DNA from: an uncultured Pelagibacteraceae bacterium
Lineage (GTDB): Bacteria; Pseudomonadota; Alphaproteobacteria; Pelagibacterales; Pelagibacteraceae
Direction: 5' to 3'
NCBI GenBank assembly: GCA_902581775.1
Contig: CACHPJ010000005.1
Span: 1 to 64,000 of the forward strand
DNA length: 64,000 bases
Below the pieces are notes generated by a model. It made no database searches and was not told the DNA's origin. It saw only the letters and a list, made by a program, of their open reading frames with translations. Shown one piece after another: positions 37,625-55,927 of this stretch (the stretch's first letter is position 1; each line of letters starts with the position of its first letter). The translations under genes and the position numbers were made by a program.

Positions 37625-38044
37625 ATGAGTATTATTGAAAATAAATGTAAGGAAAAAGGGGTCAGACTAACCGATCAAAGAAAAGTTATTGCAAAAGTTT
37701 TATCAGAGTCCAAAGAGATTTATGGTTCAAAAGACCATCCAGATGTCGATGAATTACATAAAAGAGTTTCAGTTATTGATGATAAAATAAGTATAGCCAC
37801 AGTATACCGTACAGTTAAATTATTTGAGGAAGCAGGTATATTGATTAAGCACGATTTTAAAGCCGGCAAGGCAAGATACGAAATTAATGATAACCATAAT
37901 CATTTAATCGATATAAACAGTGGAGAGATCGTTGAATTTGTAGACAAAGATATTGAAGAACTTCAAACTAAAATAGCACAAAAGTTAGGCTATAAACTAG
38001 TAGATCACAAACTAGAACTTTACGGATCTAAAATTAAAAAATAA
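37625..38044 (+). CDS. Fur-family transcriptional regulator (Fur/Mur)
   Basis: GVRLTDQRKVIAKVL; ISIATVYRTVKLFEEAGI. Confidence 0.93.
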   Translation: MSIIENKCKEKGVRLTDQRKVIAKVLSESKEIYGSKDHPDVDELHKRVSVIDDKISIATVYRTVKLFEEAGILIKHDFKAGKARYEINDNHNHLIDINSGEIVEFVDKDIEELQTKIAQKLGYKLVDHKLELYGSKIKK

Positions 38045-53184: not shown

Positions 53185-53217
53185 CTTGAGAGTTAACAAT
53201 TACTTGTTTTTTTGTTA

Positions 53218-53256
53218 TTATTCTATATATAAATATTATATTATTTGATAGAATAA
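53218..53256. promoter_or_regulatory. Inverted repeat TTATTCTAT-N21-ATAGAATAA in the fabA/irr divergent promoter region
   Basis: Exact 9-bp arms read from sequence. Confidence 0.6.
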
Positions 53257-53264
53257 ATTAAACA

Positions 53265-53678
53265 ATGATTAGCAAAAATAAGACATTTATAGAAAAACTA
53301 AGATCCTCGGGCTTAAGACCAACAAGACAAAGAGTAGAAATAAGTAAATTCTTGTTTAATAGAAAAAAAACTTTTCATTTTTCTGTTGATGACTTAAACA
53401 AATTGCTTAATTCTAGAAAAAAGAAAAAAATTTCAATAGCGACCCTATACAATACTGTCCATGCACTTAAAAGTGCTGGACACCTGAAAGAATTCTCGCT
53501 TGAAAACAATATATCCTACTATGACACCAATACTACTTCTCATCATCACTTCTATTTTAATGGAAAATTAACTGATATAAAAAATAAAGAAATCCATTTT
53601 AAAAAAATTCCAACCCCTCCAATAGGAAAAAAAATTAAAAACGTTGAAGTTGTAATTAAGCTAGAAAATATTAATTAG
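53265..53678 (+). CDS. irr: Irr-like Fur-family iron/heme-responsive regulator
   Basis: SSGLRPTRQRVEISKFLF; ISIATLYNTVHALKSAGHLKEF; TSHHHFYFNGKL; divergent from fabA as in alphaproteobacteria. Confidence 0.85.
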   Translation: MISKNKTFIEKLRSSGLRPTRQRVEISKFLFNRKKTFHFSVDDLNKLLNSRKKKKISIATLYNTVHALKSAGHLKEFSLENNISYYDTNTTSHHHFYFNGKLTDIKNKEIHFKKIPTPPIGKKIKNVEVVIKLENIN

Positions 53679-53702: not shown

Positions 53703-53730
53703 TTGACAGTTACTTTAGAATAATTATAAA
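53703..53730 (+). promoter_or_regulatory. Candidate katG promoter (TTGACA-16-TATAAA) overlapping an Irr-box-like palindrome TTTAGAA-TAA-TTATAAA (53714-53730)
   Basis: Hexamers and imperfect palindrome read directly upstream of katG ATG. Confidence 0.6.
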
Positions 53731-53743
53731 CTAATTATAGTAA

Positions 53744-55927
<2,184 letters not shown>

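Follow-up and report, generated by a model that had tools for sequence, protein, structure and literature searches.

Genes and promoter of the irr–katG locus

The window, by which we mean the whole 64-kb stretch of DNA analysed (64,000 nucleotides), belongs to an AT-rich genome of 890 kb that is 77% complete and whose nearest relatives in the named collection are Pelagibacteraceae (SAR11). Three genes on the minus strand, which we take from sequence recognition to be fabI, fabB and fabA, are followed on the plus strand by irr (53265–53678) and katG (53756–55927), the latter two separated by a gap of 77 bp. The irr product is a Fur-superfamily regulator of 137 amino acids that contains no cysteine and is assigned to the Irr (IrrA) lineage by Pfam FUR and NCBIfam IrrA, while katG encodes a catalase-peroxidase of 723 amino acids, SAR11 lineage A, which scores above cut-off with NCBIfam PRK15061 and TIGR00198 and with which solved KatG homologues align over the full length. 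Lineage A retains the distal Arg-Trp-His and has, at about residues 100–125 (window 54055–54130), an 18-letter stretch of its own where other KatG proteins have a glycine-rich loop. A second Fur-family gene in the window (37625–38044; Pfam FUR, 120 bits) probably encodes a Fur/Mur-type regulator.

Irr scores 63.6 bits against Pfam FUR (cut-off 23.1) and 127.2 bits against NCBIfam IrrA, under the curated cut-off of 150, which is a score threshold and not a biological feature; the Irr models are its best NCBIfam matches by far, and the next non-Irr model, PerRB, reaches 49.6 bits. An AlphaFold model (pLDDT 78, weaker in the C-terminal half) finds its nearest solved structures in PerR and also in Fur. 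Residues H38, D87, H93, H95 and D104, invariant in SAR11 Irr, align with all five metal ligands of B. subtilis PerR (H37, D85, H91, H93 and D104), but these ligands are common to canonical Irr as well and are thus not diagnostic for PerR. The HxH heme-binding motif is present as H93-H94-H95, with both ends invariant in 12 SAR11 Irr proteins. With no cysteine at all, the window Irr has neither the structural Zn-Cys4 site of PerR nor a cysteine-containing heme regulatory motif of the B. japonicum type, and heme-triggered degradation of the Bradyrhizobium type via that motif is therefore excluded; the motif is also absent from Brucella Irr, so it is not required of an Irr protein. The window Irr is 70–76% identical to the Irr of genus g2 and at most about 60% identical to that of its own genus, g1, whereas the window KatG is slightly nearer g1 (92–94% identity to g1 copies vs 91% to the g2 copy); an exchange of irr between the genera is possible.

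The katG promoter hexamers read in the window are TTGACA (53703–53708, plus strand) and TATAAA (53725–53730, plus strand), separated by a 16-nt spacer, and most relatives have a TTGAC or TTG-type hexamer 15–17 nt before TATAAA. Overlapping the -10 lies the predicted Irr operator TTTAGAATAATTATAAA (53714–53730, plus strand), a 7-3-7 inverted repeat, TTTAGAA-TAA-TTATAAA, which differs from the Irr box TTTAGAANNNTTCTAAA at one position, in the right half. The consensus reportedly goes back to Rodionov et al. 2006. Conserved outer positions (A at 53712, T at 53732 and A at 53733, judged from 81 distinct aligned sites) extend the operator to TAC-TTTAGAATAATTATAAA-CTA (53711–53733, plus strand). A promoter scan favours TTGACA-N18-TAAACT, with TAAACT (53727–53732) as an alternative -10; the exact -10 is ambiguous between the two hexamers, both of which are inside the operator. 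Promoter and palindrome lie exactly where a sequence-only reading had placed them and have the sequences it gave, and its count of one mismatch to the Irr box is borne out.

No other place in the window comes within one mismatch of TTTAGAANNNTTCTAAA. Including this site, there are five such places in the whole 890-kb genome, and the other four fall within coding ORFs; a further intergenic site at this threshold was sought in this 77%-complete genome and none was found. When the 77-bp gap was dinucleotide-shuffled 20,000 times, 0.095% of the shuffles came within one mismatch, and the frequency of such matches in shuffled windows corresponds to 3.5e-4 per gap. At three mismatches, the window contains 45 matches vs 43 expected, so the Irr motif is unfit for loose use in this genome. 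A position weight matrix built from the irr promoters of relatives alone, with no katG site and with neither the window nor g2 included, also gives the katG site the highest score in the window, 21.8 bits vs 14.6 for the next place. That second-best place (12561) was discarded because two overlapping genes meet there.

Conservation of the operator and its dependence on irr

The family sample comprised 197 genomes, 169 of which have a Fur-family match, some to a more distant paralogue alone; irr is present in most. Among 90 irr loci read from this sample, the gap after irr holds a perfect TTTAGAAYNATTATAAA in 73 and a one-mismatch version in 6 more (79/90). Lack of conservation in relatives with katG at this position was what the sequence-only reading had named as speaking against it; across the named SAR11 irr loci, a set that overlaps with the 90, the operator (at most one mismatch) is found between irr and the next gene in 75 of 80. 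It is there whichever gene follows, in 40/40 loci with katG of lineage A, 23/26 with lineage C, 3/4 with lineage B and 9/10 with a rubrerythrin gene (rbr), all of these being counts of loci related by descent and so not independent. In the 81 distinct sites aligned, the core positions carry 1.5–2.0 bits (0.28 at the centre) and most flanking positions less than 1 bit, and the outer T and A beside the core are nearly invariant, like the core itself. The operator lies at varying distances from irr and from the start codon in different loci, which makes it an island and not a piece of a uniformly conserved gap. Comparison at this level establishes that the operator exists and that it is conserved.

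Such conservation bears on the notion that the site is a lookalike, an AT-rich core promoter kept for its -10 and not an operator at all. The genome is indeed AT-rich, the right half of the repeat contains the -10, and Irr-like matches at three mismatches occur at the chance level given above. What this notion leaves unaccounted for is that conservation covers the two half-sites as well as the outer A/T, although no sigma factor needs the left half, that irr and unrelated enzymes share this sequence, and that the katG promoters of genomes lacking irr manage without it. We consider it very improbable.

The recurrence at irr is widespread: 52 of the 66 loci read outside genus g2 carry the same operator just 5′ of irr, which would mean autoregulation in these relatives. 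In g2 this upstream operator is missing, and the window has a weak operator-like remnant alone, with three mismatches (53211–53227, minus strand), near the position at which many relatives have a perfect operator; autoregulation of irr may have been lost in the window's branch.

The SAR11 operator is asymmetric, with a left half TTTAGAAT and a right half ATTATAAA, and this form is near-fixed in SAR11. The asymmetry is also present 5′ of irr, where it has no obvious -10 role. An asymmetric operator is unexpected for a homodimer, and this counts against reading the site as an Irr operator. Two operators occur in 15 loci (for example L040, L054, L078, L086, L092 and L094); the upstream copy, in many cases inverted or symmetric, directly precedes the -35. 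In 14 of the 15 the centres are 30–32 bp apart, a distance of three helical turns that points to cooperative binding on a single face of the DNA.

When katG occurs in genomes without a detected irr, the operator (at most one mismatch) is nearly always absent, being found in 1 of 15 readable promoters. This lone exception lies at a contig edge, and its irr may be off the contig. One further katG promoter of this group holds a two-mismatch version in the operator's place. Fisher's test of 75/80 vs 1/13 gives 2e-10, a value that is indicative only in view of shared ancestry and the use of 13 of the 15 promoters. The comparison establishes in this way that the operator depends on irr. In three g2 loci without irr (L306, L307 and L308), a katG of lineage C appears directly beside the end of fabA, with irr and operator both gone, which appears to be a joint loss of regulator and operator.

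The same dependence helps to decide which protein binds. A different Fur-family member, be it the Fur/Mur-like product of 37625–38044 or a PerR-type protein, could occupy the operator in place of Irr: the right half is Per/Fur-like and the site also differs at one position from the Bacillus Per box TTATAATnATTATAA, PerR classically targets katG and rbr, the window contains a second Fur-family gene, and PerR structures are the solved folds closest to the Irr model. The PerR/Per box regulon of Firmicutes is similar in that a Fur-family protein presides over catalase and rubrerythrin-type genes and the five metal ligands align, but SAR11 Irr, without cysteine, has no Zn-Cys4 site, and its ancestry and the neighbouring boxes are those of Irr. 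Moreover, SAR11 genomes without irr, among them G009, G022, G012 and G040, have katG without the operator although the family-wide search still finds one weaker Fur-family match in each, many relatives carry the operator in front of irr as well, and in the outgroups it takes the form of a symmetric Irr box adjoining irr. Binding by another Fur-family protein is accordingly judged unlikely.

A search for a genome-wide Irr regulon was negative: at one to two mismatches, matches equal reversed-pattern controls, and the close ones that were read are coding sequence. Across 18 genomes, the motif is about as common away from the irr locus as the control pattern (103 matches, forward plus reverse, vs 98 in the control). 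Enrichment at other Irr targets of this genome, which had been proposed as a check on the site, was not found, and the site is essentially private to its locus. Irr here looks like a local and not a global iron regulator.

Ancestry of the operator and exchange of the adjacent enzyme

In a class-wide alphaproteobacterial sample, rubrerythrin is the next gene after irr in 28 of 30 loci, and 14 of the 28 irr–rbr gaps contain an Irr box with at most two mismatches, three of them perfect, against 0.05% in shuffles. irr–rubrerythrin synteny with an intergenic Irr box is a membership feature of the Irr lineage, and SAR11 irr is found in the same slot. Two outgroup loci (L189 and L190) already have the asymmetric form TTTAGAAGAATTATAAA. 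The combination of irr, Irr box and rubrerythrin is the apparent ancestral state, and sequence comparison shows the Irr-box ancestry of the SAR11 operator, which is most simply a descendant of the canonical Irr box.

In SAR11, the gene after irr is either a rubrerythrin (Pfam PF02915) or one of three katG lineages. The two are mutually exclusive in the 29 genomes searched genome-wide, 17 of which have rbr without katG and 12 katG without rbr; the rbr search included rbr-positive genomes as a control. Mapped on the Irr tree, the slot enzyme changes 10–11 times, and supported branches alone force three or four changes per state, on what is a quick tree, built from few columns and weak at many forks. 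Rubrerythrin was likewise reported from only 4 of 28 SAR11 members in a survey of bacteria from the South Pacific Gyre (PMC11366302). An enzyme swap is well established by these comparisons, and the locus looks like an old regulator-plus-operator slot for peroxide defence in which the enzyme was swapped and the switch kept.

The same type of locus occurs in a cultured strain. In genome G026, which we take to be Ca. Pelagibacter ubique HTCC1062, operators lie 5′ of irr (389146) and of rbr (389657; SAR11_0399). HTCC1062 differs from the window in that rubrerythrin fills the slot, an extra inverted operator-like copy precedes the -35, and the autoregulatory operator has been kept.

A proposed peroxide- or heme-relieved switch

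The sequence-only reading had suggested heme/iron control of katG by its Irr-like neighbour. Comparison strongly supports control by the neighbour, because the operator is conserved together with irr, is duplicated at the irr promoter in many relatives, is nearly always absent without irr and descends from the Irr box; heme or iron as the signal is a weaker proposition, taken up below. We infer that Irr binds the site and represses katG. A dimer of the Fur-family Irr would bind the 17–23 bp inverted repeat over the katG -10, the position of a repressor since the operator covers this element, and the bound protein would block RNA polymerase. A signal derived from peroxide and/or heme would loosen binding and switch katG on. 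In the course of SAR11 evolution, regulator and operator kept their place as the enzyme in the slot switched again and again between rubrerythrin and the three katG lineages. We give a probability of roughly 0.8 to this reading as a whole: an operator of the adjacent Irr that represses katG over the -10 and is relieved by peroxide and/or heme, an old pair with an exchanged enzyme.

In rhizobia, apo-Irr represses bfr and mbfA when heme is scarce, and the SAR11 protein could follow this ordinary heme/iron-limitation logic, binding the operator and repressing katG at low heme with no role for peroxide. KatG needs heme, so that coupling its synthesis to heme supply would be sensible, and the HxH motif is conserved in the window Irr. 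Published Irr proteins sense heme; they bind DNA without it and, with heme, lose binding or are degraded (PMC7762939). On the other hand, rbr in the same slot needs no heme, and all targets are peroxide-defence enzymes. In P. ubique HTCC1062 under iron limitation, moreover, rbr mRNA rises 1.57-fold while Irr abundance is unchanged (PMC2864753); the rise has the wrong direction for simple apo-Irr repression of rbr, does not fit it, and thus favours relief by peroxide and/or heme. A purely heme- and iron-based logic is a serious possibility, albeit one that we think rather doubtful, and peroxide- or heme-relieved repression is the most likely signal logic.

The closest parallels are found in the Irr box/ICE regulon, with mbfA and ccpA of R. 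sphaeroides and blr7895 and bfr of B. japonicum as examples, where a Fur-family Irr is likewise combined with a TTTAGAA-type inverted repeat and the box lies across the start region of a gene for peroxide or iron defence. The R. sphaeroides Irr binds at both mbfA and ccpA, loss of irr raises peroxide resistance there, mbfA is strongly induced by H2O2, and at mbfA an Irr box that holds the transcript 5′ end goes with repression (PMC3413700). The ICE form is symmetric (TTTAGAA-N3-TTCTAAA) whereas the SAR11 operator, like that of the outgroup loci L189 and L190, is not; in addition, the SAR11 regulon appears confined to one locus, katG adjoins irr, and the heme regulatory motif is missing. Going further, SAR11 Irr might be what is left of a global iron regulator, cut down to a dedicated one-locus peroxide switch with PerR-like instead of heme/iron logic, usually autoregulated, with an asymmetric operator and an exchangeable slot, a proposal that we put forward tentatively and rate a little short of even.

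Irr operators as such are already known, and literature searches found nothing on katG being controlled by Irr in SAR11; what is new is the setting, an unusual single-locus circuit in which the enzyme has been swapped. SAR11 bacteria, which rank with the most abundant cells of the ocean, have few transcription factors, and their responses to peroxide and iron are poorly understood. For the clade, and for a cultured strain within it, the locus offers a concrete prediction of a complete circuit comprising regulator, operator, target and autoregulation. As regulator and operator hold their place while the enzyme alternates between a diiron protein and a heme enzyme, regulation here would outlive the regulated gene.
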